Assembly: GCA_964035545.1 (NCBI GenBank)
Contig: OZ037766.1
Location: forward strand, 113,501-177,500
Direction of reading: 5' to 3'
Length of the DNA stretch: 64,000 nt
DNA from: Bugula neritina
Lineage: Eukaryota; Bryozoa; Gymnolaemata; Cheilostomatida; Bugulidae
Part shown: positions 8,262-61,700 of the stretch, in pieces
Layout: the number at the start of each line of letters is the position of its first letter
Position numbering within the stretch: position 1 is the first letter of the stretch
Position numbers and translations under genes: made by a program
The notes under the pieces: generated by a model
Databases searched by the model: none
What the model saw: the letters and a program-made list of their open reading frames with translations, nothing else
Told to the model about the DNA's origin: nothing

Positions 8262-11200
8262 TTACAACATATAAAGTACGCCAACTACAAGCAAGATGGC
8301 GGAAATACGTCGGCTTCGAAGGTTAGCAGAATTTCTCCCACCAGGTGGAACATGTTTGCTGCTGACCATCTCGTCTCTACAATTCAGCTGACTGTCAACT
8401 GTTTTCCGACTCTTTTCATCAATTGCCATTTTCTCATCATCAAATCTCCAATAGTGTTCCCCGTGATAGAAGTAGACAACTCCTGTATAAGAGAATGTTA
8501 AGTCACTTGTATATCTATATTACATATTATATAATATCAAGTTACTTGTATGTCTATATTACATATTATATAATATCAAGTCACTTGTATATCTATATTA
8601 CATATTATATAATATCAAATATTTGCTGTTTGCTGCCACAAACTGACCATTGATTGACTCGGCAGCATCCACAGGCAGCCTCACGCCTTTCCAAACTCTC
8701 ATATTCCGAGGGTAGTTGGCCATGACTTCAGCACATGCTAGTTTATTCCGTCTGTTCCCTAGTCTCCAGTACATGTCATCTGAAGGTACCAGAGATGGTA
8801 TGACAGAGTATGACAGAATGTGACAGAATATGACAGAGTGTGACAGAGTGTGACAGAGTGTAATAAAATAAAATATTATGTTTAGGACACAATAACATCA
8901 ATTCAATAGACTAACAGGCTATACAACTTTACCACTGATAATGTAGGTGTGGTTATTGTGGGGCCACACAAACGCAGCGTCCACCTTTTTCACGTAGTGT
9001 TGCAAGCAGAAGTCGGCTATGGGACGTCCCCATATCGGTGTGCTCGCCTCTACGAAGTTGGTGTTCAGTGTGTAGTAGGAACTGCCTGCAACACCAGCCA
9101 ACAGATAACGCCCACTCATAGTATGACATGGCATTTATACAGCACATGAGTGACGCCAGTCACTTGGTTAACATGTGTTTGGAGTTGCTTTACCTATGAA
9201 TATGACCAGCTCTGGCTTGCCCCGCCCCTTTCGTTCGTAGTAAACTGCATCAATTCTGGTAAGATTCTTGGGGAGACCGTACCACAGAGAGTGAGTGATG
9301 ACAGCTTGATCTCTAACGATATTCGCTCTATCCAAGGACCAGAACAACTGCCACAGGAAATGCAATATGAGAGGCAAATCAAGGGGCACAAACTGGGGTA
9401 GCGATGAGTGCTTGTACACAAGACCTAGACAGAGGGAGGAGAGATAAGCAAAATAATTACATGATCTTTATAGAAGACGGTGATGTCCCTCGCGTGCTGC
9501 ACAGCGTCAACTCTACCAGGACATTTATCGGACGCGTTGGCAGTTACAGACGTCGTGTTGAATTCAGAAGTTGCAGCAGATTCCCCTGTAAAGATGCACA
9601 CAACTGTAGAATATTATATTTCAACAGTTAGGATATAATACAACTGTAGAATATTATATTTCAACAGTTAGGATATAACACAACTGTAGAATATTATATT
9701 TCAACAGTTAGGATATAATACAACTGTAGAATATTATATTTCAACAGTTAGGATATAACACAACTGTAGAATATTATATTTCAACAGTTAGGATATAATA
9801 CAACTGTAGAATATTATATTTCAACAGTTAGGATATAATACAACTGTAGAATATTATATTTCAACAGTTAGGATACAATACAACTGTAGAATATTATATC
9901 TCAACAGTTAGGATACAATACAACTGTAGAATATTATATTTCAACAGTTAGGATATAATACAACTGTAGAGTATTATATTTCAACAGTTATGTTATATTA
10001 CCTCGTGTTTTCACCAGAGTCAGCATTTGCTTCTCATAGACGCTGAGAGAGAGGCCATCCGAGGAGTTGTCGTACCACGGGTACATGACGGAGGAGCTGT
10101 TGTTAGAGTGCTCTAGTCCAAGAACATGTCCTATTTGATGAACAGCCACTGCATACAAACTCACACCACTACCTGCAGGGTAACATGTTACAGCGTGGTT
10201 AGCCAGGTGGAACACTAGCCAATAGAAGATGAGGTGAGATAATACTAGCCAATAGGAGGTGTGGTAGGATAAAACTAGCCAATAGGAGATGAGGTGAGAT
10301 AATACTAGCCAATAGGAGGTGTGGTAGAATAAAACTAGCCAATAGGAGATGAGGTAGAATTAATATTAGCCAATAGGGAGTGTTGCAGTACAAACCTATG
10401 GGGAGTGACAAATTGAGATTCCAGTCTTCTGCATCATCAAAGTGAACTTCTCCTCTCTTAAACTGGTCAGGGTAGAAGGAGTGTCCCAGAATACCCCCTG
10501 AAAGGTTTATCAACTATTACTTTAGTTACTGCTCTATCTAATAGAACTATATACCTGCTCTATCTAATAGAACTATATACCTGCTCTATCTAATAGAACT
10601 ATATACCTGCTCTATCTAATAGAACTACATACCTACTCTATCTAATAGAACTATATACCTGCTCTATCTAATAGAACTACATACCTGCTCTATCTAATAG
10701 AACTATATACCTGCTCTATCTAATATAACTATATACCTACTCTATCTAATAGAACTATATACCTTCTCCATCTAATAGAACTATATACCTGCTCTATATA
10801 ATATAACTATATACCTACTCTATCTAATAGAACTATATACCTACTCTATCTAATATAACTATATACCTACTCTATCTAATAGAACTATATACCTACTCTA
10901 TCTAATAGAACTATATACCTGCTCTATCTAATAGAACTACATACCTGCTCTATCTAATAGAACTATATACCTGCTCTATCTAATATAACTATATACCTAC
11001 TCTATCTAATAGAACTATATACCTTCTCCATCTAATAGAACTATATACCTACTCTATCTAATAGAACTATATACCTACTCTATCTAATAGAACTATATAC
11101 CTGCTCTATCTAATAGAACTATATACCTGCTCTATCTAATAGAACTATACACCTACTCTATCTAATAGAACTATATACCTGCTCTATCTAATAGAACTAT

Positions 11201-14200
11201 ATACCTACTCTATCTAATAGAACTATATACCTGCTCTATCTAATAGAACTACATACCTGCTCTATCTAATAGAACTATATACCTGCTCTATCTAATATAA
11301 CTATATACCTGCTCTATCTAATAGAACTATATACCTACTCTATCTAATAGAACTATATACCTACTCTATTTAATAGAACTATATACCTACTCTATTTAAT
11401 AGAACTATATACCTGCTCTATATAATATAACTATATACCTACTCTATCTAATAGAACTATATACCTACTCTATCTAATAGAACTATATACCTGCTCTATC
11501 TAATAGAACTACATACCTGCTCTATCTAATAGAACTATATACCTGCTCTATCTAATATAACTATATACCTGCTCTATCTAATAGAACTATATACCTACTC
11601 TATCTAATAGAACTATATACCTACTCTATTTAATAGAACTATATACCTGCTCTATCTAATAGAACTATATACCTGCTCTATCTAATAGAACTATATACCT
11701 TCTCCATCTAATAGAACTATATACCTACTCTATTTAATAGAACTATATACCTGCTCTATATAATATAACTATATACCTACTCTATCTAATAGAACTATAT
11801 ACCTACTCTATCTAATAGAACTATATACCTGCTCTATCTAATAGAACTACATACCTGCTCTATCTAATAGAACTATATACCTGCTCTATCTAATATAACT
11901 ATATACCTACTCTATCTAATAGAACTATATACCTGCTCTATCTAATAGAACTATACACCTACTCTATCTAATAGAACTATATACCTACTCTATCTAATAG
12001 AACTATATACCTGCTCTATCTAATAGAACTATATACCTGCTCTATCTAATAGAACTACATACCTGCTCTATCTAATAGAACTACATACCTGCTCTATCTA
12101 ATAGAACTATATGCCTGCTCTATATAATATAACTATATACCTACTCTATCTAATAGAACTATATACCTACTCTATCTAATAGAACTATATACCTGCTCTA
12201 TCTAATAGAACTACATACCTGCTCTATCTAATAGAACTATATGCCTGCTCCATCTAATAGAACTACATACCTGCTCTATCTAATAGAACTACATACCTGC
12301 TCCATCTAATAGAACTACATACCTGCTCTATCTAATAGAACTACATACCTGCTCTATCTAATAGAACTACATACCTTCTCCATCGAATCTAGCTTCGTCG
12401 TCGTGATTTTCCCCGACATTGAATGAAAACCTGATGTCGGCCTGCAGCAGGACAGTGATGTCATCAATGAGTTCCGTAAACGTGTAGTCGCTGCCTCCTT
12501 CCCAGAATTCCAGAGCCTTTCGCAGAACTTCATGAACTTTGTTTCTCGTCTCCTCTGATGCGAAGTGGTTCTCGTCATATCGGACAACTCTGAAATCAAG
12601 AAGAGTGACATGGGAAGGTAACTCTTAGTTTTCTGCACCTCAAGAATCTAATGGTTTGACAAGAAAACACAACTACAACTTATTAATAATGGTCATCTGT
12701 CATTTAGCGACACTTCAATGCTATACGGAACAAAGCTGAGACTAGTTATCTCTCCGTGTCATGTCGGAGTTGTCTCTCCGTGTCATGTCGGAGTTGTCTC
12801 TCCGTGTCGCATTGAAGTTGTTTCTCATGTTGAAGCCCTGAGACTCAAGGTTCACTCCATTCATTAAGGTTGTGATGTCATGACTCAGCAACACACCATA
12901 ATGAAAGAGGTAACCTCAAGTCACTTCTCACAGTCCCAAACTTAACAGACTCTTTTCTTTCTCCTTTTTAGAGTAAAATTGTTTGCAATACGGCAAACAT
13001 CAAGTTATAGGAATAAATATTCACTTAAATATCAAAGTTTTGAGGTACTTCATTAGTAATACATAATCCATAGTTCAGGTTTTACTGAACAGGGCAACAC
13101 GTTGCTATTCCTAAGTCATATTTAATCTCAAAGCATAGTATTTTAAGGTCTGCGAACTTACGACCAAGTTAGCTGGGTTTTGGGAAACCCGATGTGTTTA
13201 TTCTGAGCGCCAGATCTCAGTTGCTCTATATCATCAAACACTCCACAACGTGGTGCCACTAGCTTAGCCTCAGTTTCCTCATCAAGTACCCCCGTCTCTG
13301 GTAAACCTGCCAGGAACTGGACGCCCTTGACACTTTGAGAGACTTCCTGGTTGGTGGGAAGTCTTCCATACTCATTTAGAGAACTGGGGAGATATTCATA
13401 TTTCTGTAGCAACTTCTGCAACTATAAGAACAAAGTTGAGCTGAAAATACTTTAATAGTTTCGGTGAAAATACCCTTTGAATAAGTTGTTTACTATAGAA
13501 ATTGAATGTCAACACTAATAGCTAAAGGAGTAACCATGCATGTTTACTCTACACTGATTTGCTTTGATTTGTTACTTTTCTAATGCGAGACAACTCACAA
13601 AAAAGTCTATCAGCCAAATTAAACTTCAGGCTGAAAATCTGGAAGGTATAGACGCACTAAAGACTTGAATCCAACCTACTAAAGCATATTGTGATTAATT
13701 AATCATATAAATATTGCAGTGCATAGTCTACTTACCATCCCATACCTGTAAAATACTTGAGACAAACGAAATAAAATACAAAATATATCTTCTAAAATCT
13801 AAACTATTGCTTTCAGCTAAATGAGTAGTAGCTACTGCATAAATTAATCCATTACAGCCACTCCACTTTGTTGATTCACAAAATACAATACCTTGTTTCA
13901 GGTTGTTATCGCAAGCGCTAAATCTTAATTTTCTATATTTTACAACAGTTTACTAAGTTTACAGATTGCTGTTTAATGACTTACATATAATGGGAATAAT
14001 TTTAAAACTCTTAAAACCTTTCTCTACCTTATTCAAAACATTGTTACCTAAAATTTTCTATTACTTTCTCCTTTTTGAAACACTACCAGCAGACTACCAA
14101 CAGTGTGGAAGGTTCTAGAACACTACCAGCAGACTACCAACAGTGTGGAAGGTTCTAGAACACTACCAGCAGAATACCAACAGTGTGGACCTACCAGGTA

Positions 14201-15842: not shown

Positions 15843-15936
15843 TGCTCCACTCGTAAATTGTTATACTCTATGGGTGCTGTCTAAAATGTTGATCACATAA
15901 CATAGAATACTATAACTATACAGTTTACAGTGAGTT

Positions 15937-16117
15937 GATACCCTTACTAGTAATATTACTATATAGTATTCAGTGTGTTGATACCCTTACTAATAATATA
16001 ACTATATAGTATACAGTGAGTTGATACCCTTACTAATAATATAACTATATAGTATTCAGTGAGTTGATACCCTTACTAATAATATAACTATATAGTATAC
16101 AGTGAGTTGATACCCTT
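15937..16117. repeat. 43-bp tandem repeat upstream of the MMP start
   Basis: About four copies starting GATACCCTTACTAATAATAT at a 43-bp spacing, in the 395-bp gap between two divergent starts (15842 minus and 16238 plus). Any shared promoter would contain it. Confidence 0.85.
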
Positions 16118-16189
16118 ACTAATACTAGTGAGACTTGCTATGAGGTCTACAGGCTCACACTGATGTCTAAGCCATAAGAAAGTAATGAA

Positions 16190-16197: not shown

Positions 16198-16237
16198 AAT
16201 GCATAAGTGTCAGCGGTGTTCACTTCTCAGAGCAAAT

Positions 16238-16305
16238 ATGCTGAATATGCAGGGATTTCTCAGCCTTTTCATGTTTATACTGGAAATCATAGCTACACAG
16301 CAAGT
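16238..16305 (+). CDS. Signal-peptide first exon of an unresolved plus-strand gene (partial)
   Basis: ATG followed by 22 codons (MLNMQGFLSLFMFILEIIATQQ), a good signal peptide with a hydrophobic core, ending at a strong donor AAGT|GTAAGT (phase 2). A TATA box lies 41 bases upstream. The exon end and donor are tandemly duplicated in the following intron, as at several certain splice sites in this window, which supports this being a real junction. I could not connect it with confidence to a second exon. It is divergent from the MMP gene. Confidence 0.45.
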
Positions 16306-16575
16306 GTAAGTTACATAATATATAGTATATATACTACACAGCAAGTGTAAGTTACATAATATTATATAGTATATACTACACAGTAAGTGTAAGTTACATA
16401 ATATATACTACACAGCAAGTGTAAGTTACATAATATATACTACACAGCAAGTGTAAGTTACATAGTATATAGTATATACTACACAGTAAGTGTAAGTTAC
16501 ATAGTATATAGTATATACTACACAGTAAGTGTAAGTTACATAGTATATAGTATATACTACACAGTAAGTGTACGA
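16306..16575. repeat. Donor-junction repeat, about 8 copies
   Basis: Units of about 30-45 bp each contain CTACACAGCAAGT|GTAAGTTACATA. The first 13 bases are identical to the end of the exon at 16238-16305 and the rest to the start of its intron. Some units have CAGTAAGT instead of CAGCAAGT. Confidence 0.85.
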
Positions 16576-17803: not shown

Positions 17804-17811
17804 ACAACTAA

Positions 17812-19164: not shown

Positions 19165-22100
19165 TTAGTATATATAGACAGTAGTATATAGACAGTAGTA
19201 TATAGAGAGTAGTATATAGAGAGTAGTATATAGACAGTAGTATATAGAGAGTAGTATATAGAGAGTAGTATATAGAGAGTAGTATATAGAGAGTAGTATA
19301 TAGAGAGTAGTATATAGAGAGTAGTATATAGAGAGTAGTATATAGAGAGTAGTATATAGAGAGTAGTATATAGAGAGTAGTATATAGAGAGTAGTATATA
19401 GACAGTAGTATATAGAGAGTAGTATATAGAGAGTAGTATATAGAGAGTAGTATATATGAGATAGTATATAGAGAGTAGTATATAGACAGTAGTATATAGA
19501 GAGTAGTATATAGACAGTAGTATATAGACAGTAGTATACAGAGAGTAGTATATAGAGAGTAGTATATAGACAGTAGTATATAGAGAGTAGTATATAGACA
19601 GTAGTATATAGAGAGTAGTATATAGACAGTAGTATATAGAGAGTAGTATATAGAGAGTAGTATATAGAGAGTAGTATATAGAGAGTAGTATATAGAGAGT
19701 AGTATATATAGAGTAGTATATAGAGAGTAGTATATAGAGAGTAGTATATAGACAGTAGAATATAGAGAGTAGTATATAGAGAGTAGTATATAGAGAGTAG
19801 TATATAGAGAGTAGTATATAGAGAGTAGTATATAGACAGTAGTATACAGAGAGTAGTATATAGAGAGTAGTATATAGAGAGTAGTATATAGACAGTAGTA
19901 TATAGAGAGTAGTATATAGACAGTAGTATATAGAGAGTAGTATATAGAGAGTAGTATATAGAGAGTAGTATATAGAGAGTAGTATATAGACAGTAGTATA
20001 TAGACAGTAGTATATAGAGAGTAGTATATAGAGAGTAGTATATAGACAGTAGTATATAGAGAGTAGTATATAGACAGTAGTATATAGACAGTAGTACATA
20101 GAGAGTAGTATATAGAGAGTAGTATATAGACAGTAGTATATAGAGAGTAGTACATAGAGAGTAGTATATAGAGAGTAGTATATAGACAGTAGTATATAGA
20201 GAGTAGTATATAGACAGTAGTATATAGAGAGTAGTACATAGAGAGTAGTATATAGAGAGTAGTATATAGACAGTAGTATATAGAGAGTAGTATATAGACA
20301 GTAGTATATAGAGAGTAGTATATAGAGAGTAGTATATAGAGAGTAGTATATAGAGAGTAGTATATAGACAGTAGTATATAGAGAGTAGTATATAGAGAGT
20401 AGTATATAGACAGTAGTATATATAGAGAGTAGTATATAGAGAGTAGTATATAGAGAGTAGTACATAGACAGTAGTACATAGACAGTAGTATATAGAGAGT
20501 AGTATATAGAGAGTAGTATATAGACAGTAGTATATAGAGAGTAGTATATAGAGAGTAGTATATAGACAGTAGTATATAGAGAGTAGTATATAGACAGTAG
20601 TATATAGAGAGTAGTATATAGAGAGTAGTATATAGAGAGTAGTATATAGACAGTAGTACATAGAGAGTAGTATATAGAGAGTAGTATATAGACAGTAGTA
20701 TATAGACAGTAGTATATAGAGAGTAGTATATAGAGAGTAGTATATAGACAGTAGTATACAGAGAGTAGTATATAGACAGTAGTATACAGAGAGTAGTATA
20801 TAGAGAGTAGTATATAGAGAGTAGTATATAGACAGTAGTATATAGAGAGTAGTACATAGAGAGTAGTATATAGAGAGTAGTATATAGAGAGTAGTATATA
20901 GAGAGTAGTATATAGAGAGTAGTATATAGAGAGAGTAGTATATAGAGAGTAGTATATAGAGAGTAGTATATAGACAGTAGTATATAGACAGTAGTATATA
21001 GAGAGTAGTATATAGAGAGTAGTATATAGACAGTAGTATATAGAGAGTAGTATATAGACAGTAGTATATAGACAGTAGTACATAGAGAGTAGTATATAGA
21101 GAGTAGTATATAGACAGTAGTATATAGAGAGTAGTACATAGAGAGTAGTATATAGAGAGTAGTATATAGACAGTAGTATATAGAGAGTAGTATATAGACA
21201 GTAGTATATAGAGAGTAGTACATAGAGAGTAGTATATAGAGAGTAGTATATAGACAGTAGTGTATAGAGAGTAGTATATAGAGAGTAGTATATAGACAGT
21301 AGTATATAGAGAGTAGTATATAGAGAGTAGTATATAGACAGTAGTATATATAGAGAGTAGTATATAGAGAGTAGTATATAGAGAGTAGTACATAGACAGT
21401 AGTACATAGACAGTAGTATATAGAGAGTAGTATATAGAGAGTAGTATATAGACAGTAGTATATAGAGAGTAGTATATAGAGAGTAGTATATAGAGAGTAG
21501 TATATAGAGAGTAGTATATAGAGAGTAGTATATAGAGAGTAGTATATAGACAGTAGTACATAGAGAGTAGTATATAGAGAGTAGTATATAGACAGTAGTA
21601 TATAGAGAGTAGTACATAGAGAGTAGTATATAGAGAGTAGTATATAGACAGTAGTATATAGAGAGTAGTATATAGACAGTAGTATATAGAGAGTAGTACA
21701 TAGAGAGTAGTATATAGAGAGTAGTATATAGACAGTAGTATATAGAGAGTAGTATATAGAGAGTAGTATATAGACAGTAGTATATAGAGAGTAGTATATA
21801 GAGAGTAGTATATAGACAGTAGTATATATAGAGAGTAGTATATAGAGAGTAGTATATAGAGAGTAGTACATAGACAGTAGTACATAGACAGTAGTATATA
21901 GAGAGTAGTATATAGAGAGTAGTATATAGACAGTAGTATATAGAGAGTAGTATATAGAGAGTAGTATATAGAGAGTAGTATATAGAGAGTAGTATATAGA
22001 GAGTAGTATATAGAGAGTAGTATATAGAGAGTAGTATATAGAGAGTAGTATATAGAGAGTAGTATATAGAGAGTAGTATATAGAGAGTAGTATATAGAGA

Positions 22101-38900: not shown

Positions 38901-40749
38901 CTTACTATAATAACTTACTATAATAACTTACTATGATAACTTACTATAATAACTTACTATAATAACTTACTATGATAACTTACTATAATAACTTACTATA
39001 ATAACTTACTATGATAACTTACTATAATAACTTACTATAATAACTTACTATGATAACTTACTATAATAACTTACTATAATAACTTACTATACTAACTTAC
39101 TATAATAACTTACTATAATAACTTACTATAATAACTTACATGGTGGAGGAAGGCGTGTAGCTCAGGGTGACTACTAGGATTGCCAGTCACCTCAAAAAGA
39201 GGCAAGAAAATGTTTTCTAGAAGCTCTCCAAAGTTATCCAGCTGTTTGTTAGCCTTGTAGATGTCACTGTAACAGAAGAGCTCAATGGTTGCTGAATATA
39301 TAGTTTACTTGTGAGCAAAACTTTGATTTATTCTAGAAATACGACTAGAATAGCCTCAAAAACTGGACCACTTACTATAGCCTGGGAATCTGCACCATCC
39401 ACACGACGTTGGGGGAGTGAACTTTGTGTCTGATTGCCCACTTGGCAAGGTCGTCCCACTCGTTGCGAGATCTACCGTAGATGGAGAGTCTGAACTCGGC
39501 ATTCTGGTACTTACTCTCTTCCAGATCACTCATCACTTCCTGTGTATACGTATGTAATATATATGACAGAGTGAGTAATATATATATGATATAGTGAGTA
39601 ATATATATGATATAGTGAGTAATATATTTGATATAGTGAGTAATATATATGATATAGTGAGTAATATATATATGATATAGTGAGTAATATATATGATATA
39701 GTGAGTAATATATTTGATATAGTGAGTAATATATTTGATATAGTGAGTAATATATATGATAGAGTGAGTAATATATATGATATAGTGAGTAATATACATG
39801 ATATAGTGAGTAATATATATGATAGAGTGAGTAATATATATGATATAGTGAGTAATATATATATGATATAGTGAGTAATATATATATGATATAGTGAGTA
39901 ATATATATGATATAGTGAGTAATATATATGATATAGTGAGTAATATATATGATAGAGTGAGTAATATATATGATATAGCGAGTAATATAAAAGATGACAC
40001 AGCGAGTAATATAAAAGATGACACACCTTCATCAACTCAGCAAAGTACCTGCCCTGCATGTCATTATTAGTCTTCATGAAAATGTCTCTTACGACAGAAG
40101 CACCAATAGGATTGTACTTGGAGTTGAACTTATCAAATCTGTGAAATGTGTTCTTCCCTCCCTAAAACAAAGAGTTATTCAACCAATAGGAAAATAATAT
40201 ACTTACACAGTGTACATACAGTATATATACTTACACAGTGTACGTACAGTATATATACTTGCACAGTGTACATACAGTATATATACTTACACAGTGTACG
40301 TACAGTATATATACTTACACAGTGTACGTACAGTATATACTTACACAGTGTACGTACAGTATATATACTTACACAGTGTATGTACAGCATATATACTTAC
40401 ACAGTGTACGTACAGTATATATACTTACACAGTGTAAATACAGTATATATACTTACACAGTGTACGTACAGTATATACTTACACAGTGTATGTACAGCAT
40501 ATATACTTACACAGTGTACGTACAGTATATATACTTACACAGTGTAAATACAGTATATATACTTACACAGTGTACGTACAGTATATATACTTACACAGTG
40601 TACGTATAGTATATACTTACACAGTGTACGTCCAGCACATCTACGGACAAGTCAAAGGCACCGACTCCAACACTCTTGAACACCTTACAAATATAATATA
40701 ATATACTATAATATAATATAATAATATAGTGCAATAATATTATTATAAA

Positions 40750-40788
<39 letters not shown>

Positions 40789-46700: not shown

Positions 46701-49700
46701 TATACTGTAGTATTGTGTAATATACTGTAGTATAATGTAATATACTGTAGTATAGTGTAATATACTGTAGTATAGTGTAATATACTGTAGTATAGTGTAA
46801 TATACTGTAGTATAGTGTAATATACTGTAGTATAGTGTAATATACTGTAGTATAGTGTAATATACTGTAGTATAGTGTAATATACTGTAGTAGAGTGTAA
46901 TATACTGTAGTATAGTGTAATATACTGTAGTATAGTGTAATATACTGTAGTATAGTGTAATATACTGTAGTATAGTGTAATATACTGTAGTATAGTGTAA
47001 TATACAGTAGTATAGTGTAATATACTGTAGTATAGTGTAATATACTGTAGTATAGTGTAATATACTGTAGTATAGTGTAATATACCGTAGTATAGTGTAA
47101 TATACTGTAGTATAGTGTAATATACTGTAGTATAGTGTAATATACTGTAGTAGTGTAATATACTGTAGTATAGTGTAATATACTGTAGTATAGTGTAATA
47201 TACTGTAGTATAGTGTAATATACTGTAGTAATGTAAAGCAGCAGAACAGACGGCAGCAGTTGTTAGGTATGAAGCAGCACACAGGAAGTGATCAAATCAA
47301 ACGGCCAATCACACATGGGTATAGAAAATGTTAGCCTATTAGAATAGGCATCACATGAGGTGCTGGCCCACCTTTCCATATTCATGTATAACTTGTTCTT
47401 CACTGTTAAATTTGTGAACAATACTGCACCAATATGTATCATGAGAAGGAAAACCACGCACGAAAGAAGACAATTCCAAGTTGATCTTAGCAAAGAGAAA
47501 GACAACTCCGAGAAAAGCAAAATTAACCATGTAGAATTTAATTGTTAGTGTAACTCTATTTCTCCCCTTCTACATAAGAGAGTATATAATACTACTCTAT
47601 TTCTCTCCTTCTACATACGAGAGTATATAATACTACTCTATTTCTCTCCTTCTACATACGAGAGTATATAATACCAGAGTATATAATACGAGAGTATATA
47701 ATACGAGAGTAGAAAGGTAGCAAGGTATCACTGTGTCTACTGAGTATAAACTAACAGATAAAAAGATAAAAGAACAAAACAGAAACAGAAAACCAAAACT
47801 CAAAGTATATCATTATTTCACCTGCCGTGGAGTTTGTTCTGGGAGGAGTGGAAGTTGGCCCTGTGACGAAACGAAATGAGACAGTTACCTGCGCTATTAC
47901 ACATAGTTACCTGCGCTATTACACAAAGTCACCTGCGCTATTACACACAGCTACCTGCGCTATTACACATAGTTACCTGCGCTATTACACATAGTTACCT
48001 GCGCTATTACACATAGTTACCTGCGCTATTACACATAGTTACCTGCGCTATTACACACAGTTACCTGCGCTATTACACATAGTTACCTGCGCTATTACAC
48101 ATAGTTACCTGCGCTATTACACATAGTTACCTGCGCTATTACACATAGTTACCTGCGCTATTACACACAGTTACCTGCGTTATTACACATAGTTACCTGC
48201 GCTATTACACATAGTTACCTGCGCTATTACACACACCAAACACATGTTTGTTTGTTTGTTTTTATTTTGTCGTAGTCGGGGAAAAAATTAATTGAGAAAA
48301 AATAAACAAAATGACAGGGCCTATGGCGCAATAGCACTGTAGCTAGTCGAGGCACCGAGCCACGAATGGTTGACAGTTATATAATATTTTTGCTTAGGTT
48401 TTTGGAAGTTTTAGCAACTCAAAAAGTATTATTTTTTTATCTGGAAATTTGCCATTAGATGGTCTCTCAGGGCAAGTTTGAAACCAGCCTCCCTCCCCAC
48501 AGCACGAATAGAACTAGGCAATTCATTCCATAGCGTCGAACATTGGAATTCCACTCTTCGTTGACCTGCAGCAGTTGATGATAGAGGAGTTTGTAGGCTG
48601 AACTCTGAAAATCTTGTGGGATAGTTATGTGTGAGATGTGTTAGTTGAGAATAGTAAAGTTTATGTGAGAGCAGTATTAGTTTGAATTTGTGTAGAGTGT
48701 GAATAGGCATGATTGAAGAACTAAGAAACAGTGGTTTAGATGGGGAAAGGTGATGCTTTTTATATATAATTCTCAGTATTTTCTTTTGTAGTAAAAGTAA
48801 TGGTTCAAGATAAATGTTTGCTGCATTACCCCACGATTCTAGGCAATATGTTAATTTAGAATTTACAAAAGAGTTATATATTTGTATTAGAATTTTTCTA
48901 GGTAGGTGATTGGAACATTTACTTATCAAGCCTACTAAGGGCCTTAGGTTTTGACAAAGTTTGCTGCAATGTTGTTGCCAAGAAAGATGTGAATCTATTA
49001 TAATACCTAAGAAGGTAGTTGATTTTACCTCCACTAATTTTTTGTTAAACATTTCTAAGGCAAAGCCATTTAAATCTTGTTTATTTTGCGCTGTTTTGAT
49101 TATCATATAGTTTGTTTTACTCATGTTTACAGTTAATTTATTTTTATTGCACCAATTTTCTATTTTCTTTAATTCACAGTTTATGATGTCCATATTTCAA
49201 TGTCAACACTGACTGCTAATCAATGCACATAGAGAATTTAATATATGGTCTCTCTCTAAGACGTGTAGCCTGAGGGACATGCATGTACCTTTACACGTAA
49301 TGCAGGAGGGATAACCTCTATATAAAGATACTAATGTACCAATCAGCTAGCAGTAAACACAAACTCTGCATACTGAATAAAGTGGCAAATCAGAGCAAGG
49401 GTTATATAGTTGAAGGCGTTAGCTGCACCAATCACACTCAACATCTGTGTCTATAAACATTCAGGTGTCACTCAGTCTTACCGTCTTCATCCTCCATTGC
49501 TACGTCGTATAAGTCTGAGAGAAAGAGACAGACAAAGTAGAGACTACAGAATATTCAATGTAGCATACCCCGGCTACTTCCACCCCTGCTACTTCCACCC
49601 CTGCTACCTCCACCCCTGCTACCTGTACCTTTACTACCTCCACCCCTGCTACCTGTACCCCTGCTACTTCCACCCCTGCTACCTCCACCCCTGCTACTTC

Positions 49701-52700
49701 CACCCCTGCTACCTCCACCCCTGCTACTTCCACCCCTGCTACTTCCACCCCTGCTACTTCCACCCCTGCTACTTCCACCCCTGCTACTTCCACCCCTGCT
49801 ACCTCCACCCCTGCTACTTCCACCCCTGCTACTTCCACCCATACTACACACACACTCAAAGCTCTTAACTCACCAGCAATAGACCTCTTCCTCAGCATGT
49901 TCCCCTCCCCCTCCAACAGTTTCTCATCTTCAAAGATGTTACACACACCGGCATCGCTGACTTTGGCCAACATCTTAGCCACCGGCCGGTAGAACTCCTG
50001 GAGGGAAGCTTTCATGTACCGCTGTCGGAGCAGCAGCGCCTTCACGATCTGCTCGGAGCATCTTTTCAGCTCTTCAGTGGGAACCTGCAAGACATTAGGA
50101 GTTGTCTGTCCACTGTATACTCGCACACACATATATATATATAATACACCAATTATATGACATTCAGTATCTCACCCCGCTGTGGTCCTCCCCGCTAATA
50201 GCCACCCTCTGGAAGTCCAGCTCCAGGTCTCTCGTGTTTTTCATATGGCGAGACGACTCCTGGTCCAGTTGACTGGACGTTGAGGAGCTGGAGTGGAGCG
50301 ACTCAGACATGTCTGGGTCCATAGCAACACTGTAAACAAGTAACCATAGCAACACTGTAAACAAGTAACCATAGCAACACTGTAAACAAGTAACCATAGC
50401 AACACTGTAAACAAGTAACCATAGCAACACTGTAAACAAGTAACCATAGCAACACTGTAAACAAGTAACCATAGCAACACTGTAAACAAGTAACCATAGC
50501 AACACTGTAAACAAGTAACCATAGCAACACTGTAAACAAGTAACCATAGCAACACTAAACAAGTAACCATAGCAACACTGTAAACAAGTAACCATAGCAA
50601 CACTGTAAACAAGTAACCATAGCAACACTTCAAGTATGTAACTACCTGGCAAGAATATCCACATTCTGGAGCAAACTGAGGCGTCATGCAACTGAGAAAC
50701 AGCCAGTGGTAGCGGCAGACACACAGACAGACACACAGACAGACACAAGACTGGCTAGCACATGCTATGATATAACAGAGAGAGGAGACCGTACCTTCTA
50801 ACATGGGATGTGTCGGGGATAGAAGAGGTGTTCTGGGTGGAGTCATGGGCTAGGTCAAGGCTAGTTTGTGCCAGGGTACCAGTTCTACAGACAAACATGG
50901 GCTATGCAGGTAAATCAGTACTCAGGTATGTCAGTATATCAGTACTCAGGGGTCAGGGGTCATGGCAAGGCGAACATTCACACTAAATGCAATTTCACTG
51001 ATGAGATTGCTGTAGAAAATCTGTTAATGTTTCCATAATTATATTATATTCAGAGTCAACAACTACCAATACACTAGCAGCTAAATGTTATTATACTCAC
51101 TATAACATACTAACTATATACTATATACTCACTGTATACTAACTATATACTAACTATATACTAACTATATACTAACTATATACTATATACTCATAGAAAT
51201 ATGTCACATGACCAGTGAAGAGAGAAACAACAAGGAATAACTATCCATCATTAGTAATAACAATACAACAATAATAATATTATAATTACTCAGCAGGTTA
51301 AACAATAGACAGGTCATTATATGCGAGTAGTAGAAATTCTGTCAGTAAATATTGTTTGTTAATTTCATATACAGTAATATACATTATATAATATACAGTA
51401 ATATACATTATATAATATACAGTAATATACATTATATAATATACAGTAATATACATTATATACTATACAGTAATATACATTATATAATATACAGTAATAT
51501 ACATTATATAATATACAGTAATATACATTATATACTATACAGTAATATACATTATATAATATACAGTAATATACATTATATAATATACAGTAATATACAT
51601 TATATAATATACAGTAATATACATTATATACTATACAGTAATATACATTATATAATATACAGTAATATACATTATATAATATACAGTAATATACATTATA
51701 TACTATACAGTAATATACATTATATAATATACAGTAATATACATTATATAATATACAGTAATATACATTATATAATATACAGTAATATACATTATATAAT
51801 ATACAGTAATATACATTATATAATATACAGTAATATACATTATATACTATACAGTAATATACATTATATAATATACAGTAATATACATTATATAATATAC
51901 AGTAATATACATTATATAATATACAGTAATATACATTATATACTATACAGTAATATACATTATATAATATACAGTAATATACATTATATAATATACAGTA
52001 ATATACATTATATAATATACAGTAATATACATTATATAATATACAGTAATATACATTATATACTATACAGTAATATAACATATACTATATACAATAATAT
52101 ATCATATACTATACAGTAATATAACATATACTATACAGTAATATAACATATACTATACAGTAATATAACATATACTTTATATATTGTAGTAAAAATTCTC
52201 ACTTTCGGGATATTTTATCCTCCAGCAACTCACGGTGACGCTTCTTGTCAATGGGGAAATGTGGCATCTCAAAAGGAGTGCAAAGTTCAAACCTACTTGA
52301 GTCCATATCTTCGTTCACCGAGCACAAAGCGCTGCCACTAGTCGAGAACTGCTTCAGTAGATGCTTAGCTTTCTATAAAATATAATTCTAGAACTGAAGA
52401 TGAAATGTGCAGAATATTATACACTGAAGATGAAATGTGCAGAATACACACTGAAGATGAAATGTGCAGAATATACACTGAAGGTGAAATGTGCAGAATA
52501 TATACTGAAGATGAAATGTGCAGAATATATACTGAAGGTGAAATGTGCAGAATATACACTGAAGGTGAAATGTGCAGGATACACACTGAAGACACTAGTT
52601 ACTTCTACAAGTACATCCGACCAGTAAGTATCTCAATACAAGTCAGATGAACACTTTACTAGTAGCCGACAGAAAACTGTGGACATAAGATGCAAAAACT

Positions 52701-55700
52701 TGGTAATTCCGTTTCCTAATATGCAGCAACAGCTGGAAATCCCCACCCAGCTCAACAAACTCTATTCTACCCCCTAGTTTTACCTTATCTTACTCCTAAC
52801 CTACTCTATTCTACCCCCTAGCTTTACCTTATCTTACTCCTAACCTACTCTATTCTACCCCCTAGCTTTACCTTACCTTACTCCTTACCTACTCTATTCT
52901 ACCCCCTAGCTTTACCTTATCTTACTCCTAACCTACTCTACTCTACCCCCTAGCTTTACCTTACCTTACTCCTAACCTACTCTACTCTACCCCCTAGTTT
53001 TCAACTACCCTATTTCACCCTGACATATAACACACTGACCCCTACTATCCCACAAGCACCAGCCAGTCTTGTGTCCCCCTCAGCAATGAACTGGTGAGGC
53101 CAACTGCTTTGTTTAAGTAACAACCTAATCAGCCAATCAGAAGCTTGTTTACAATCTAGTGAGTTGCGTGATTCAATAGTACATCTGTACTTGTACAGTG
53201 TCACAGTACTACAGTGTAACAGTACTACAGTGTCACAGTACTACAGTGTCACAGTACTACAGTGTCACAGTACTACAGTGTAACAGTACTACAGTGTCAC
53301 AGTACTACAGTGTAACAGTACTACAGTGTCACAGTACTACAGTGTCACAGTACTACAGTGTAACAGTACTACAGTGTCACAGTACTACAGTGTCACAGTA
53401 CTACAGTGTAACAGTACTACAGTGTAACAGTACTACAGTATCACAGTACTACAGTGTCACAGTACTACAGTGTAACAGTACTACAGGGTAACAGTACTAC
53501 AGTGTCACAGTACTACAGTGTGACAGTACTACAGTGTCACAGTACTACAGTGTAACAGTACTACAGTGTCACAGTACTACAGTGTAACAGTACTACAGGG
53601 TAACAGTACTACAGTATCACAGTACTACAGTGTCACAGTACTACAGTGTAACAGTACTACAGGGTAACAGTACTACAGTATCACAGTACTACAGTGTCAC
53701 AGTACTACAGTGTCACAGTACTACAGGGTAACAGTAATACAGTGTCACAGTACTACAGTGTCACAGGACTACAGTGTCACAGTACTACAGGGTAACAGTA
53801 ATACAGTGTCACAGTACTACAGTGTAACAGTACTACAGGGTAACAGTACTACAGTATCACAGTACTACAGTGTCACAGTACTACAGTGTCACAGTACTAC
53901 AGTGTCACAGTACTACAGGGTAACAGTACTACAGTATCACAGTACTACAGTGTCACAGTACTACAGTGTCACAGTACTACAGTGTCACAGTACTACAGTG
54001 TCACAGTACTACAGTGTGACAATGTGATATATATTATAACAAGGGGAGGTAACACACAGGTTGTAACATAGCTGAGTACATAGTTCTGTCTCCATATAAT
54101 AATCACGTGGATTGAATGAAATTAAAATCTCTTGACGAATAATAAAATCATATACCAGAAAATAAGGAATATTTATGGAAAGAAATACTGATAGACCAAA
54201 AGACAACAGAGCCAATATTTATCCAATAGAATTGACCTGAGTGAATGATAAACTTATCCCAGCAAAAGGAAGGGAAATCTAAATAAATGCAATATGTGCA
54301 TTACAGAGCAAAAAATCTTAGTAAAACACAGGTTAGCTAGAAGTCTGGAAACACAAACAGCTTTGTGATGGTAGAATCTAGCAAAATAAATGTAAATGAG
54401 GCTAAAAATAGCGAAACATTACATCACTTTCCTTTCACTTTGCATTAATATCGTATTATGACTAACAGCTCCTAGCTTCAACTATATATTATACTCTCTC
54501 ACCTTATCATACTCTATACTCTCTCACCTTATCATACTCTATACTCTCTCACCTTATCATACTGTATACTCTCTCACCTTATCATACTGTATACTCTCTC
54601 ACCTTATCATACTGTATACTCTCTCACCTTATCATACTGTATACTCTCTCACCTTATCATACTGTATACTCTCTCACCTTATCATACTGTATACTCTCTC
54701 ACCTTATCATACTGTATACTCTCTCACCTTATCATACTCTATACTCTCTCACCTTATCATACTGTATACTCTCTCACCTTATCATACTCTATACTCTCTC
54801 ACCTTATCATACTCTATACTCTCTCACCTTATCATACTCTATACTCTCTCACCTTATCATACTCTATACTCTCTCACCTTATCATACTGTATACTCTCTC
54901 ACCTTATCATACTGTATACTCTCTCACCTTATCATACTGTATACTCTCTCACCTTATCATACTCTATACTCTCTCACCTTATCATACTGTATACTCTCTC
55001 ACCTTATCATACTGTATACTCTCTCACCTTATCATACTCTATACTCTCTCACCTTATCATACTCTATACTCTCTCACCTTATCATACTGTATACTCTCTC
55101 ACCTTATCATACTCTATACTCTCTCACCTTATCATACTGTATACTCTCTCACCTTATCATACTGTATACTCTCTCACCTTATCATACTGTATACTCTCTC
55201 ACCTTATCATACTGTATACTCTCTCACCTTATCATACTGTATACTCTCTCACCTTATCATACTGTATACTCTCTCACCTTATCATACTCTATACTCTCTC
55301 ACCTTATCATACTGTATACTCTCTCACCTTATCATACTCTATACTCTCTCACCTTATCATACTCTATACTCTCTCACCTTATCATACTCTATACTCTCTC
55401 ACCTTATCATACTGTATACTCTCTCACCTTATCATACTCTATACTCTCTCACCTTATCATACTGTATACTCTCTCACCTTATCATACTGTATACTCTCTC
55501 ACCTTATCATACTCTATACTCTCTCACCTTATCATACTCTATACTCTCTCACCTTATCATACTGTATACTCTCTCACCTTGTCATACTGTATACTCTCTC
55601 ACCTTATCATACTGTATACTCTCTCACCTTATCATACTGTATACTCTCTCACCTTGTCATACTGTATACTCTCTCACCTTATCATACTGTATACTCTCTC

Positions 55701-58700
55701 ACCTTATCATACTGTATACTCTCTCACCTTATCATACTGTATACTCTCTCACCTTATCATACTGTATACTCTCTCACCTTATCATACTGTATACTCTCTC
55801 ACCTTATCATACTGTATACTCTCTCACCTTATCATACTGTATACTCTCTCACCTTATCATACTGTATACTCTCTCACCTTATCATACTCTATACTCTCTC
55901 ACCTTATCATACTCTATACTCTCTCACCTTATCATACTCTATACTCTCTCACCTTATCATACTGTATACTCTCTCACCTTATCATACTGTATACTCTCTC
56001 ACCTTATCATACTGTATACTCTCTCACCTTATCATACTCTATACTCTCTCACCTTATCATACTCTCTCACCTTATCATACTGTATACTCTCTCACCTTAT
56101 CATACTGTATACTCTCTCACCTTATCATACTGTATACTCTCTCACCTTATCATACTGTATACTCTCTCACCTTATCATACTCTATACTCTCTCACCTTAT
56201 CATACTGTATACTCTCTCACCTTATCATACTCTATACTCTCTCACCTTATCATACTCTATACTCTCTCACCTTATCATACTGTATACTCTCTCACCTTAT
56301 CATACTCTATACTCTCTCACCTTATCATACTGTATACTCTCTCACCTTATCATACTCTATACTCTCTCACCTTATCATACTGTATACTCTCTCACCTTAT
56401 CATACTGTATACTCTCTCACCTTATCATACTGTATACTCTCTCACCTTATCATACTGTATACTCTCTCACCTTGTCATACTGTATACTCTCTCACCTTAT
56501 CATACTCTACACTCTCTCACCTTATCATACTCTATACTCTCTCACCTTATCATACTCTCTCACCTTATCATACTGTATACTCTCTCACCTTGTCATACTG
56601 TATACTCTCTCACCTTATCATACTGTATACTCTCTCACCTTATCATACTCTATACTCTCTCACCTTATCATACTGTATACTCTCTCACCTTATCATACTC
56701 TATACTCTCTCACCTTATCATACTGTATACTCTCTCACCTTATCATACTGTATACTCTCTCACCTTATCATACTGTATACTCTCTCACCTTATCATACTG
56801 TATACTCTCTCACCTTGTCATACTGTATACTCTCTCACCTTATCATACTCTACACTCTCTCACCTTATCATACTCTATACTCTCTCACCTTATCATACTC
56901 TCTCACCTTATCATACTGTATACTCTCTCACCTTATCATACTGTATACTCTCTCACCTTATCATACTCTATACTCTCTCACCTTATCATACTGTATACTC
57001 TCTCACCTTATCATACTGTATACTCTCTCACCTTATCATACTGTATACTCTCTCACCTTATCATACTGTATACTCTCTCACCTTGTCATACTGTATACTC
57101 TCTCACCTTATCATACTCTACACTCTCTCACCTTATCATACTGTATACTCTCTCACCTTATCATACTCTATACTCTCTCACCTTATCATACTGTATACTC
57201 TCTCACCTTATCATACTCTATACTCTCTCACCTTATCATACTGTATACTCTCTCACCTTATCATACTGTATACTCTCTCACCTTATCATACTGTATACTC
57301 TCTCACCTTATCATACTGTATACTCTCTCACCTTGTCATACTGTATACTCTCTCACCTTATCATACTCTACACTCTCTCACCTTATCATACTCTATACTC
57401 TCTCACCTTATCATACTCTCTCACCTTATCATACTGTATACTCTCTCACCTTATCATACTGTATACTCTCTCACCTTATCATACTCTATACTCTCTCACC
57501 TTATCATACTGTATACTCTCTCACCTTATCATACTGTATACTCTCTCACCTTATCATACTGTATACTCTCTCACCTTATCATACTGTATACTCTCTCACC
57601 TTGTCATACTGTATACTCTCTCACCTTATCATACTCTACACTCTCTCACCTTATCATACTGTATACTCTCTCACCTTATCATACTCTCTCACCTTATCAT
57701 ACTGTATACTCTCTCACCTTATCATACTGTATACTCTCTCACCTTATCATACTGTATACTCTCTCACCTTATCATACTGTATACTCTCTCACCTTATCAT
57801 ACTCTATACTCTCTCACCTTATCATACTGTATACTCTCTCACCTTATCATACTCTATACTCTCTCACCTTATCATACTCTATACTCTCTCACCTTATCAT
57901 ACTGTATACTCTCTCACCTTATCATACTCTATACTCTCTCACCTTATCATACTCTATACTCTCTCACCTTATCATACTGTATACTCTCTCACCTTATCAT
58001 ACTCTATACTCTCTCACCTTATCATACTCTATACTCTCTCACCTTATCATACTGTATACTCTCTCACCTTATCATACTGTATACTCTCTCACCTTATCAT
58101 ACTGTATACTCTCTCACCTTATCATACTGTATACTCTCTCACCTTATCATACTCTATACTCTCTCACCTTATCATACTGTATACTCTCTCACCTTATCAT
58201 ACTATATACTCTCTCACCTTATCATACTATATACTCTCTCACCTTATCATACTCTATACTCTCTCACCTTATCATACTGTATACTCTCTCACCTTATCAT
58301 ACTGTATACTCTCTCACCTTATCATACTCTATACTCTCTCACCTTATCATACTGTATACTCTCTCACCTTATCATACTGTATACTCTCTCACCTTATCAT
58401 ACTGTATACTCTCTCACCTTATCATACTCTATACTCTCTCACCTTATCATACTGTATACTCTCTCACCTTATCATACTCTATACTCTCTCACCTTATCAT
58501 ACTGTATACTCTCTCACCTTATCATACTGTATACTCTCTCACCTTATCATACTGTATACTCTCTCACCTTATCATACTCTATACTCTTTCACCTTATCAT
58601 ACTGTATACTCTCTCACCTTATCATACTGTATACTCTCTCACCTTATCATACTCTATACTCTCTCACCTTATCATACTGTATACTCTCTCACCTTATCAT

Positions 58701-61700
58701 ACTCTATACTCTCTCACCTTATCATACTCTATACTCTCTCACCTTATCATACTGTATACTCTCTCACCTTATCATACTGTATACTCTCTCACCTTGTCAT
58801 ACTGTATACTCTCTCACCTTATCATACTGTATACTCTCTCACCTTATCATACTGTATACTCTCTCACCTTATCATACTGTATACTCTCTCACCTTATCAT
58901 ACTGTATACTCTCTCACCTTATCATACTGTATACTCTCTCACCTTATCATACTGTATACTCTCTCACCTTATCATACTGTATACTCTCTCACCTTATCAT
59001 ACTGTATACTCTCTCACCTTATCATACTCTATACTCTCTCACCTTATCATACTCTATACTCTCTCACCTTATCATACTCTATACTCTCTCACCTTATCAT
59101 ACTGTATACTCTCTCACCTTATCATACTGTATACTCTCTCACCTTATCATACTGTATACTCTCTCACCTTATCATACTCTATACTCTCTCACCTTATCAT
59201 ACTGTATACTCTCTCACCTTATCATACTCTATACTCTCTCACCTTATCATACTCTATACTCTCTCACCTTATCATACTCTATACTCTCTCACCTTATCAT
59301 ACTGTATACTCTCTCACCTTATCATACTGTATACTCTCTCACCTTATCATACTCTATACTCTCTCACCTTATCATACTCTATACTCTCTCACCTTATCAT
59401 ACTGTATACTCTCTCACCTTATCATACTGTATACTCTCTCACCTTATCATACTGTATACTCTCTCACCTTATCATACTGTATACTCTCTCACCTTATCAT
59501 ACTGTATACTCTCTCACCTTATCATACTGTATACTCTCTCACCTTGTCATACTGTATACTCTCTCACCTTGTCATATTCCTCGTCCTCGGGGTTGGACAC
59601 GTGTCTCGGGAACTTCTTTCTACTCGGAGAGAAAGGCGTTTTGTTGACGGAGGTGGTGGAAGAGCCGTTGTTCCAGTTAACTGTGCTGTTACTTCCTACC
59701 TCCTCTACAAGAGAATATTATATAATACAGCCACTGTTAGTGCGCATATTGTACCTGAATTACTTCTACAATACTCTACTTCACTGCAACACTAAACCCC
59801 TGATCTTGGAAAGATGCCAGCATCATTCCTGTGATACAAAATATCCTGCAAACAATTTATTTAAACCTTAAAAATTTATCAGAAAAGTATTCAAATAGTT
59901 TGGCAGCCCCTTGTACGCTGAAAAAATAACCAACAGTAATTAAATGCACATCCCTGCTGTTAGCAATAAGACAGCTGGGTGAGATTAGGCAGTTGTGGGA
60001 GAGAGTGAGCAGGAAATGAAACTACCACACTGCATGCTTCCAGGAGAGTAGAGGCAGTGCAATGACAGTGCAGGCAGCGTCAGGGCAGTGCAGGCAGCGT
60101 CAGGGGAGTGTAGACAGTGTCAGGGCAGTGCAGGCAGCGTCAGGGCAGTGGTAAATTAGCAACACAACTTAAACAATGTTTAAATAAATGTGAGTTGTAT
60201 CTTTTCTCTGACTCATATAAAACTGTTTGCCTTACATTTCATTCCATTATGTTACAGACATCTATTACTAGTAATATCTATTTTTAGTAACATATATTCT
60301 TCGAAATTAGCAACATCTGTTATTAGTAAAAAAACAATTGAAAGCTAGCAGTGAGAGTTACTGTTAGTCAGTAGTGACAAAGTGAGAGTTACTGTTAGTC
60401 AGTAGTGACAGAGTGAGAGTTACTGTTAGTCAGTAGTGACAGAGTGAGAGTTACTGTTAGTCAGTAGTGACAGAGTGAGAGTTACTGTTAGTCAGTAGTG
60501 ACAGAGTGAGAGTTACTGTTAGTCAGTAGTGACAGAGTGAGAGTTACTGTTAGTCAGTAGTGACAGAGTGAGAGTTACTGTTAGTCAGTAGTGACAGAGT
60601 GAGAGTTACTGTTAGTCAGTAGTGACAGAGTGAGAGTTACTGTTAGTCAGTAGTGACAGAGTGAGAGTTACTGTTAGTCAGTAGTGACAGAGTGAGAGTT
60701 ACTGTTAGTCAGTAGTGACAGAGTGAGAGTTACTGTTAGTCAGTAGTGACAGAGTGAGAGTTACTGTTAGTCAGTAGTGACAGAGTGAGAGTTACTGTTA
60801 GTCAGTAGTGACAGAGTGAGAGTTACTGTTAGTCAGTAGTGACAGAGTGAGAGTTACTGTTAGTCAGTAGTGACAAAGTGGGAGTTACTGTTAGTCAGTA
60901 GTGACAGAGTGGGAGTATTGTTCTCAGTCAACAAGAGGAGATAATTACTAAATCTGATTACTTGTTTCACAACAAAATAGAATGTAATATGTTAACAGCA
61001 AGCAAGTGGTTCAGGGTCAAAGTTCATAGATAGAAGGGGAGAAAACCCCAACATATCCTGACACTCACCAAAAAACATGTCAATTAAAGCCATTAGAAAC
61101 AGAAATGCGACAATACTTGAAGACGGGTGAGTGTGTGACTGTATAGTAACACACTTTGACTGCAATAAGCTAGAGTCAGTGAACATAACATAACTCTACA
61201 CTGTGTACAGGAAGTATATAAACTCTACACTGTGTACAGGAAGTATATAAACTCTACACTGTGTACAGGAAGTATATAAACTCTACACTGTGTACAGGAA
61301 GTATATAAACTCTACACTGTGTGCAGGAAGTATATAAACTCTACACTGTGTACAGGAAGTATATAAACTCTACACTGTGTACAGGAAGTATATAAACTCT
61401 ACACTGTGTGCAGGAAGTATATAAACTCTACACTGTCTACAGGAAGTATATAAACTCTACACTGTGTACAGGAAGTATATAAACTCTACACTGTGTACAG
61501 GAAGTATATAAACTCTACACTGTGTGCAGGAAGTATATAAACTCTACACTGTCTACAGGAAGTATATAAACTCTACACTGTGTGCAGGAAGTATATAAAC
61601 TCTACACTGTCTACAGGAAGTATATAAACTCTACACTGTGTGCAGGAAGTATATAAACTCTACACTGTGTACAGGAAGTATATAAACTCTACACTGTGTG

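Follow-up and report, generated by a model that had tools for sequence, protein, structure and literature searches.

How does an intron come to hold tens to hundreds of copies of its own splice site, exonic bases included? The question is raised by a window of 64,000 nucleotides of Bugula neritina DNA, in which the initial annotation had described arrays of this kind in at least five introns of three genes, with 9-14 exonic bases per unit. The observation itself is real: introns here do contain copies of their own donor together with the exon tail. Direct base comparison of donors with their next copies gives four cases in the window, the fifth (MMP 10396) being weak. The copied exon bases are contiguous in three of them (9 at 59568, 11 at AMPD 40621, 13 at 16305), but the 14 exon bases at MMP 12375, a diverged case, align with 3 mismatches. 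Two of the four exons, at AMPD 40621 and MMP 12375, are backed by homology.

Copies of the donor and exon tail within introns

The array behind donor 59568 extends over 54490-59576 on the minus strand, with about 205 copies (x204.9) of a 25-nt unit, TATGA(C/T)AAG/GTGAGAGAGTATACAG (slash, exon-intron boundary), made of 9 exon and 16 intron bases. The second copy lies 25 nt on and repeats the exon bases TATGACAAG, as well as 12/12 intron bases. The exon was predicted from its splice sites and from an open frame that can be joined with that of the following predicted exon, and has no homology match in Pfam, PDB or NCBIfam; its annotated place in AMPD is putative. At its 3' side the intron holds some 2.1 kb of different sequence, including more arrays, before the next predicted exon.

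The AMPD gene was used to fix junctions, since the in-frame join of its 13 coding exons (35978-50084, minus strand) matches AMP deaminase 2 (PDB 26xc, 8hu6) with E = 1.9e-262. Its donor 40621, whose exon falls within this alignment, is followed by 15.9 copies of a ~28-nt unit containing ACGTACACTGT/GTAAGTATAT (40197-40635, minus). Other AMPD arrays, all on the minus strand, stop at the junction or close to it. The intron 39139-37530 is occupied by arrays over 37537-39139, first of 13-nt units (GTAAGTTATTATA) that begin exactly at the GT, then of 20-nt units (..GTAAGTACTGTATAGTAATA) that end at most 7 nt from the acceptor, leaving 13 unique bases in 1610. These two arrays look alike. The 22-nt array of donor 36777 (36314-36772) starts at the GT or at most 4 nt from it and has no exon bases; that of donor 40027 (39970-40025; 24-nt unit, 2.3 copies from the donor) includes at most 1 exon base and continues into a 21-nt array at 39554-39989. 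On the acceptor side, a 12-nt array (CAGTATATTACA, 44401-45254) stops at the intron AG, a single base short of exon 44399, with no exon bases.

In the MMP gene (peptidase M10), donor 12375 precedes 71.5 copies of the 26-nt unit GATAGAGCAG/GTATATAGTTCTATTA (10529-12388, minus), where the exon reads GATGGAGAAG. The Peptidase_M10 match runs up to the exon's last residue, exon bases occur at both diagnostic positions in copies 27, 53 and 63 of 71, and the last 31 nt of the intron are unique. Together with 59568, this array bears out the annotated tens to hundreds of copies per intron. When the 215.8-Mb genome was searched with these two units, the matches listed were all in the unit's own intron: every one of the 22 exact matches for MMP 12375 and, among the 131 occurrences of the 59568 unit, all of the 100 matches listed. 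At MMP donor 10396 (10214-10377, minus; 30/60-nt units), the first part of the unit resembles the exon end CACTCCCCATAG, a diverged likeness of 12 bases judged by eye, and the in-register test failed (intron 9/14, exon 4/12). At MMP donor 10002, a 40-nt array (9600-10001, minus) begins at the GT and ends 14 nt short of the acceptor, with a diverged first copy and no exon bases. Array starts at the GT without exon bases, also part of the annotation, are therefore clear at 39140 and diverged at 10002; another such start lies at 109322, outside the window.

On the plus strand, donor 16305 (16293-16568) has 7.3 copies of a ~39-41-nt unit with CTACACAGCAAGT/GTAAGTTAC, the exon and the gene starting at 16.24 kb both being putative. 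The array of donor 28586 in the gene at 28-35 kb (28582-28680, plus; roughly three 32-nt copies containing ..TG/GTAMGTACTTGGGTGG) shares 2 contiguous exon bases with copy 2 and is a young or weak case. Outside the window, contiguous exon bases in the units number 17, 18, 8, 6 and 6. The best of these cases is an ORP8-like gene (103182; 17 exon bases, within the homologous alignment), and exons of the ORP8-like, MFS and first AK8-like cases are backed by homology. The AK8-like exon at 72160 looks P-loop-like by eye, but searched alone it reached no significance (ADK E = 0.083), and an NCBIfam search with the first of two SOD-gene exon ends gave no match.

The exon bases in the units descend from the junctions at independent loci and are not chance likenesses, as the initial annotation had held. 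Exon ends of unrelated predicted junctions score at least 9 in 0.015% of 20000 pairs. In the comparison with shuffled intron-array pairs, run over 167 filtered donors and 169 acceptors, an edge at most 30 bp from a donor is present in 45 arrays, of which 22 share the register of their own donor, while among shuffled pairs 18 of 2687 do so; strong exon matches occur in 7 of the 22, one duplicated MFS gene pair being counted twice. Copying is rare on the acceptor side, where 5/47 arrays are in register with their own acceptor (Fisher p = 7e-5 against the donors). About 300 kb of the genome stands behind these counts and the edge counts below.

Array edges around donors and acceptors

The exon models were for the most part produced by a small gene finder built for the purpose, whose set of 340 exons contains 75 that pass a strict filter and 223 that pass a relaxed one. 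The relaxed set, filtered further, underlies the later counts, and hand-set window junctions were added for the set of 178 donors and 178 acceptors. A gene-finder run with a low intron penalty returned 17 'genes' with 7314 introns and was discarded as runaway.

At the donors, 13 array edges fall on the exon side (-20 to -3), 5 at the junction (-2 to 2) and 29 on the intron side (3 to 20); the corresponding acceptor counts are 1, 2 and 31, with 1 more edge at exon positions -60 to -21. These counts contain some false exons, and donor 50177 and acceptor 36106, both hand-set, are each one base off. The 13 exon-side edges at donors include three whose AT-rich or GA-rich exon ends are doubtful (C2:67206, 99657, 239428) and two that are both copies of one duplicated MFS gene, and exclude the 16305 array, whose donor was entered as 16316. 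The donor/acceptor asymmetry has a Fisher p of 0.0024, or 0.031 with a stricter exon-side count of 8, which left out five edges, including ORP8-like 103182 (real by later alignment) and AK8-like 72160.

Edges do not pile up at the donor itself, where the 5 found at -2 to +2 compare with 8.1 expected if flat. Likewise, 11 arrays start at intron positions 0 to 6, where spreading the starts evenly over the unique bases of the intron would give 10.0. Acceptor edges at -2 to 2 are below flat (2 vs 8.6), a deficit that may simply arise because an acceptor signal has to be unique. Array starts also bunch at +15 to +19 (15/91), which lies outside what filtering by splicing explains.

Probable tandem duplication and its alternatives

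The arrays are probably minisatellites of the 'mirage' type, arising from general tandem duplication that is filtered by splicing. The chromosome end would be very prone to tandem duplication, with short segments duplicated at essentially any position. A duplicated segment across the 5' splice site would be tolerated, because the first copy leaves the exon and its donor intact and the extra copies are intronic. Slippage or unequal exchange may afterwards lengthen and homogenise the arrays, and the intron would fill with copies of its own donor and exon tail. Segments straddling the acceptor would be removed, probably by selection, because an extra AG and intron bases would precede the true exon. 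The exon-proximal donor would be the one used, by exon definition. The distribution of edges between exon and intron sides (13 vs 29 at donors, 1 vs 31 at acceptors) therefore fits general duplication filtered by splicing, although tolerance of donor-straddling arrays is incomplete, edges at donors being about 0.45 times as frequent on the exon side as on the intron side. Strong donors occur in 10/20 anchored arrays in sense and 1/20 in antisense. In other intronic arrays, sense donor scores are below antisense ones (Wilcoxon p = 0.012; strong donors in 14/149 vs 21/149), a pattern to be expected were free decoy donors at a disadvantage. Exon-identical variants that survive in internal array copies, the listed matches of both searched units, all in their own introns, and the repeat-rich location fit this reading too.

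A mutational process targeted to the junction, in which R-loops, co-transcriptional breakage or AGGT slippage duplicate exon-intron boundaries, would account for the many arrays in register with their own donor and for those that begin exactly at the GT; spared acceptors would also be expected if the process were tied to donors. It is nevertheless unlikely, since edges are not in excess at the junction by either count and 120/289 arrays lie outside accepted introns, though some introns were surely missed. The boundary-specific duplication proposed in the initial annotation is thus not supported by the placement of edges, and the stepwise origin that it envisaged from an AGGT duplication is unneeded, the 39140 array starting at the GT with a 13-nt unit that lacks AGGT.

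A different origin, quite improbable in our judgement, is that the introns were born from arrays, duplication of an AGGT-containing exon segment having provided both splice sites (Rogers-type gain). In its favor, 22 of the 91 predicted introns with arrays have at most 40 unique bases, an intron at C1:5.02 Mb is a single 21-nt array from the GT to 4 nt before its end (4 unique bases in 862), and two MMP paralogs are intronless at the site of the 12375 intron, which they read straight through. However, the 3' end is not unit-derived in the two longest junction-seeded introns (MMP 12375 and 59568), whose splice sites do not both come from a duplicated segment, the C1 intron being a possible exception, and the acceptors in register with an array are few. 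Selection for donor arrays, for example as U1-binding sites against premature polyadenylation in long introns or for splicing tuning, could be read from the intact GT of the 59568 copies, but most other unit positions are conserved about as well, so that recent homogenisation explains the GT; with sense donors weaker, not stronger, in non-anchored intronic arrays, such selection is highly improbable. Long arrays are hard to assemble, but an assembly artefact is scarcely credible when copies differ among themselves, many independent loci are involved and cases of two or three copies exist.

General duplication filtered by splicing could have a further, more tentative consequence. Whole introns at repeat-prone chromosome ends might be overwritten by tandem-duplication turnover until they consist almost wholly of array plus splice signals, the 5' splice site acting as a one-way permeable border that leaks exon tails into the intron and the 3' splice site not. 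Some introns might owe both of their splice sites to the array, effectively reborn as minisatellites, and the spliceosome would have to single out a donor from as many as 200 nearly identical copies.

Known systems and the repeat-rich setting

Mirages, of which the founding paper is reportedly that of Canestro in 2002, are spliced normally despite the copies and are unstable in length, also somatically. Boundary-spanning minisatellites were given this name in lancelet (amphioxus, a cephalochordate), with Adh3, globin, TnC and PGBD5 described (PMC3087553, PMC3902484) and an Adh3 unit of 10-72 bp, as cited in PMC3087553. The Bugula arrays resemble these descriptions in being minisatellite-like repeats across an exon-intron boundary with splice-site copies (PMC3087553): the unit spans the boundary and includes exon bases, sizes in the analysed DNA are 13-69 nt, close to those cited for Adh3, and intronic copies keep the splice signal (GT in 200/200 counted copies at 59568 and 69/71 at MMP 12375). 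Unlike the lancelet mirages as described there, they reach about 205 copies and affect several genes of one region, and almost donors alone are copied, whereas both boundary sides are copied in lancelet globins.

Intron gain by tandem duplication (Rogers) has been described for potato RdRp, with ATP2A1 as cited (PMC4974935), and for human segmental duplications, in a study that notes exon-intron boundaries with tandem repeats as well (PMC2812944). These systems similarly have splice signals inside a tandem duplication (PMC4974935, PMC2812944), but the outcome they describe is a new intron or alternative splicing, whereas here only the donor is copied and the acceptor is unrelated to the unit in the examined cases. 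Human VNTRs are described as enriched subtelomerically and GC-rich (PMC7608644). Minisatellites are likewise concentrated near chromosome ends here, though not all ends, but the window is AT-rich (GC 0.22-0.43 per 2 kb). Tandem repeats make up a fraction of 0.42 of C2:1-257500, a chromosome end, vs 0.047 of an interior stretch of 50 kb (C1:5.00-5.05 Mb) and 0-0.13 of the sequence at five loci of MMP paralogs; 3/5 further chromosome ends sampled are repeat-rich. A genome search for TTAGGG x4 gave no match.

What appears to be new is how far the copying goes (~205 copies), how unequally donors and acceptors are affected, and that some predicted introns consist of array from one end to the other. 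A true donor followed by as many as about 200 near-identical donors that resemble the consensus makes a natural experiment on splice-site choice: under exon definition the first copy should be used, and under models that favour the intron-proximal donor kilobases of repeat should be included. The asymmetry offers a simple way of testing which duplicated splice sites natural selection lets stand, the arrays suggest how far introns at chromosome ends can be rewritten, and the little-studied 'mirage' repeats gain a larger case set.

As for other properties of the arrays, derivation of the arrays of one intron from each other is unsupported (score at least 12 in 5/222 same-intron pairs and in 7/222 antisense controls), with a weak shift in likeness relative to other introns (p = 0.022). 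In-frame arrays inside exons have periods divisible by three in 6/6 rows; this was given no weight, as the gene finder accepts open frames alone, one array is entered twice, once per strand, and one row is intronic.

Junction assignment and the copying of exon bases

The genome searched comprised 215.8 Mb in 295 contigs, and sequence was read over C2:1-257500 (C2 being the contig that includes the window, at C2:113501-177500), 50 kb of another contig, C1, seven 2-kb samples and the five MMP-paralog loci, with N in a small portion of one stretch. Junctions were set from reading frame, and from homology where possible. The 13 AMPD exons can be joined without a frame break and give a match to AMP deaminase 2 (PDB 26xc, E = 1.9e-262), and M10 matches lie in two window exons of the MMP gene, one running up to the final residue ahead of donor 12375. 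Outside the window, one gene model matches Oxysterol_BP (E = 1.2e-79) and an ORP8 chain (E = 2.8e-131), and others match adenylate kinase (ADK), Sod_Cu, MFS_1, a calponin-homology domain and a nuclear receptor. Labels of the kind AK8-like or EB1-like are our presumptive designations. The exon at 59568 (- strand), whose donor has the largest of the junction arrays, found no match in Pfam, PDB or NCBIfam. It is supported by splice sites and by an open frame that runs on into the next predicted exon, so that its naming as AMPD in the initial annotation is putative. Among the cases with copied exon bases, homology backs the exons at 40621, MMP 12375, the ORP8-like and MFS genes and C2:184651 (AK8-like); the remaining exons come from the gene finder or open frames.

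At 18 junctions, the donor was compared with the next repeat copy and contiguous exon bases were counted. Hand-picked from gene-model junctions and by eye, these cases demonstrate the phenomenon, not its rate. The initial annotation held that intron arrays copy their own splice junction together with exon bases, and this was borne out at 59568 (9 bases), AMPD 40621 (11) and the gene at 16.24 kb (13). Donor 28586 gave a negative or weak result (2). Elsewhere, copying reached 17 bases at the ORP8-like C2:216682, 18 at the AK8-like C2:185660, 8 at SOD C2:80604, and 6 at both MFS C2:48472 and the AK8-like C2:184651 (10 in the latter, allowing one mismatch). Unrelated exon ends, used as a control, scored at least 9 in 0.015% of 20000 pairs. 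MMP 12375 is diverged, with 14 exon bases matched at three mismatches and 2 contiguous; SOD C2:86041 shares 3, equal to the consensus AAG and no more, and AMPD 40027 is negative or weak with 1. No exon base is copied at the EB1-like junction, where an inserted base shifts the register, at the nuclear receptor and third AK8-like junctions, or at AMPD 39140, AMPD 36777 and MMP 10002; of these, AMPD 39140 and, with a diverged first copy, MMP 10002 agree with the earlier description of arrays that abut the GT without exon bases.

Register, edge positions and the mode of duplication

In the filtered set, an array edge lies within 30 bp of 45 of 167 donors, and 22 of these 45 arrays are in register with their own donor (18/2687 shuffled pairs). 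At least 6 of exon bases 4-12 are matched in 7 of the 22, two of the seven being copies of one duplicated gene, against 1.5% in controls. Acceptors have an edge within 30 bp in 47 of 169 cases, with 5 of the 47 arrays in own-acceptor register (12/2802 shuffled pairs).

A mechanism that targets exon-intron boundaries, as formerly proposed, is not favored by the edge positions. Nearest edges at 178 donors number 13 at -20 to -3, 5 at -2 to 2, 13 at 3 to 10 and 16 at 11 to 20, and those at 178 acceptors 1, 2, 16 and 15, respectively; thus edges show no peak at the donor and drop by roughly half on its exon side, and they all but cease on the exon side of the acceptor. Under uniform placement in the intron's unique bases, 10.0 array starts would be expected at 0 to 6 (11 observed) and 16.3 at 7 to 20 (23 observed). 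This pattern, which is independent of the 59568 exon and hence unaffected by its lack of homology, is consistent with duplication at any position, survivors being set by splicing. Tandem duplication might hit anywhere and splicing filter the copies that survive: an extra donor copy behind the true donor would be neutral if the exon-proximal donor is used, while an acceptor copy would place a usable AG ahead of the exon. In 149 other intronic arrays, donor scores are lower in sense than in antisense (uncorrected p = 0.012; strong sites 14 vs. 21), and free decoy donors seem mildly disfavored; anchored arrays reverse the trend (strong donors 10 sense vs. 1 antisense, of 20). Separately, array starts are bunched at +15 to +19 from predicted donors in 15 of 91 introns (C2:1-257500 and C1:5.00-5.05 Mb).

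Origin of the units and relation to known mirages

The 59568 unit has 131 genome matches, and the 100 places listed all lie within the 59568 intron (the other 31 fall outside that list); the 22 matches of the MMP unit are all in its own intron. Exon-identical variants occur at 59568 in copies 1, 2, 32 and eight others, of 200, and MMP copies 1, 27, 53 and 63 of 71 carry exon bases at both diagnostic positions. Together, these sequence matches suggest that the coding exon was the source of the units.

Minisatellites that span an exon-intron boundary received the name mirages in lancelet Adh3. Cases in globin, TnC and PGBD5 genes are also reported, splicing is described as undisturbed, and length instability is noted for Adh3 and a globin (PMC3087553, PMC3902484). 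The present arrays are a further, strong set of mirage cases, of a type already described. They share with those of lancelets a minisatellite across the boundary, whereas the array size and the donor/acceptor asymmetry were found here; no earlier report of either came to light in the open-licence library searched.

Unique sequence totals at most 40 bases in 22 of the 91 array-bearing introns predicted, including 4 of 862 in a C1 intron, 13 of 1610 at AMPD 39139 and 19 of 4989 at C2:36808. Since one expansion within a normal intron should spare more of the unique sequence, prolonged turnover is possible, as is the birth of introns from arrays. The best candidate for an array-born intron is the predicted 862-nt intron at C1:5017706-5018567 (-) (L023), in which some 41 repeats of a 21-nt unit extend from the GT and stop 4 nt short of the exon. 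Rogers-type gain, in which a tandem duplication supplies both splice sites, does not fit the window's two longest junction-seeded introns, as they keep a 3' end unrelated to the unit.

Genomic setting

Tandem repeats make up 42% of C2:1-257500 (277 arrays), 4.7% of the C1 interior block and 0-13% of the five MMP loci. In 2-kb samples, the repeat fraction was 0.39, 0.68, 0.86, 0 and 0 about 100 kb from other ends, and 0 and 0.03 mid-chromosome, so that repeat-rich chromosome ends are a tendency, not universal. Base 1 of C2 is a contig end and, given the C2 size of 33.6 Mb, probably a chromosome end; TTAGGG repeats were found neither at the C2 start nor in the genome.

An 8.4-kb array at 19167-27587 (14-nt unit, about 601 copies) gives way to a G run. 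The gene at 28-35 kb (+) encodes Thr-rich repeats from in-frame 60-nt and 30-nt units (29383-30154 and 30370-30572). An MFS-type exon end with a 69-nt two-copy donor repeat is present twice, at C2:48472 and C2:57767 (window -65028 and -55733); the two lie on opposite strands, some 9 kb from each other, and form an inverted duplication. By eye, a GPCR-like single-exon frame lies at 42596-43420 (+), between AMPD exons 44262 and 40683 and on the strand opposite AMPD, and reverse-transcriptase-like frames lie at 62434-63876 (+) and 48429-49196 (-), the latter flanked by two AMPD exons. The final copy of a 25-nt array at 50319-50629 (-) continues into ..ACAG TGTTGCTATGGACCC; this array may be a mirage on the acceptor side or, alternatively, a repeat that precedes a start codon close to AMPD.
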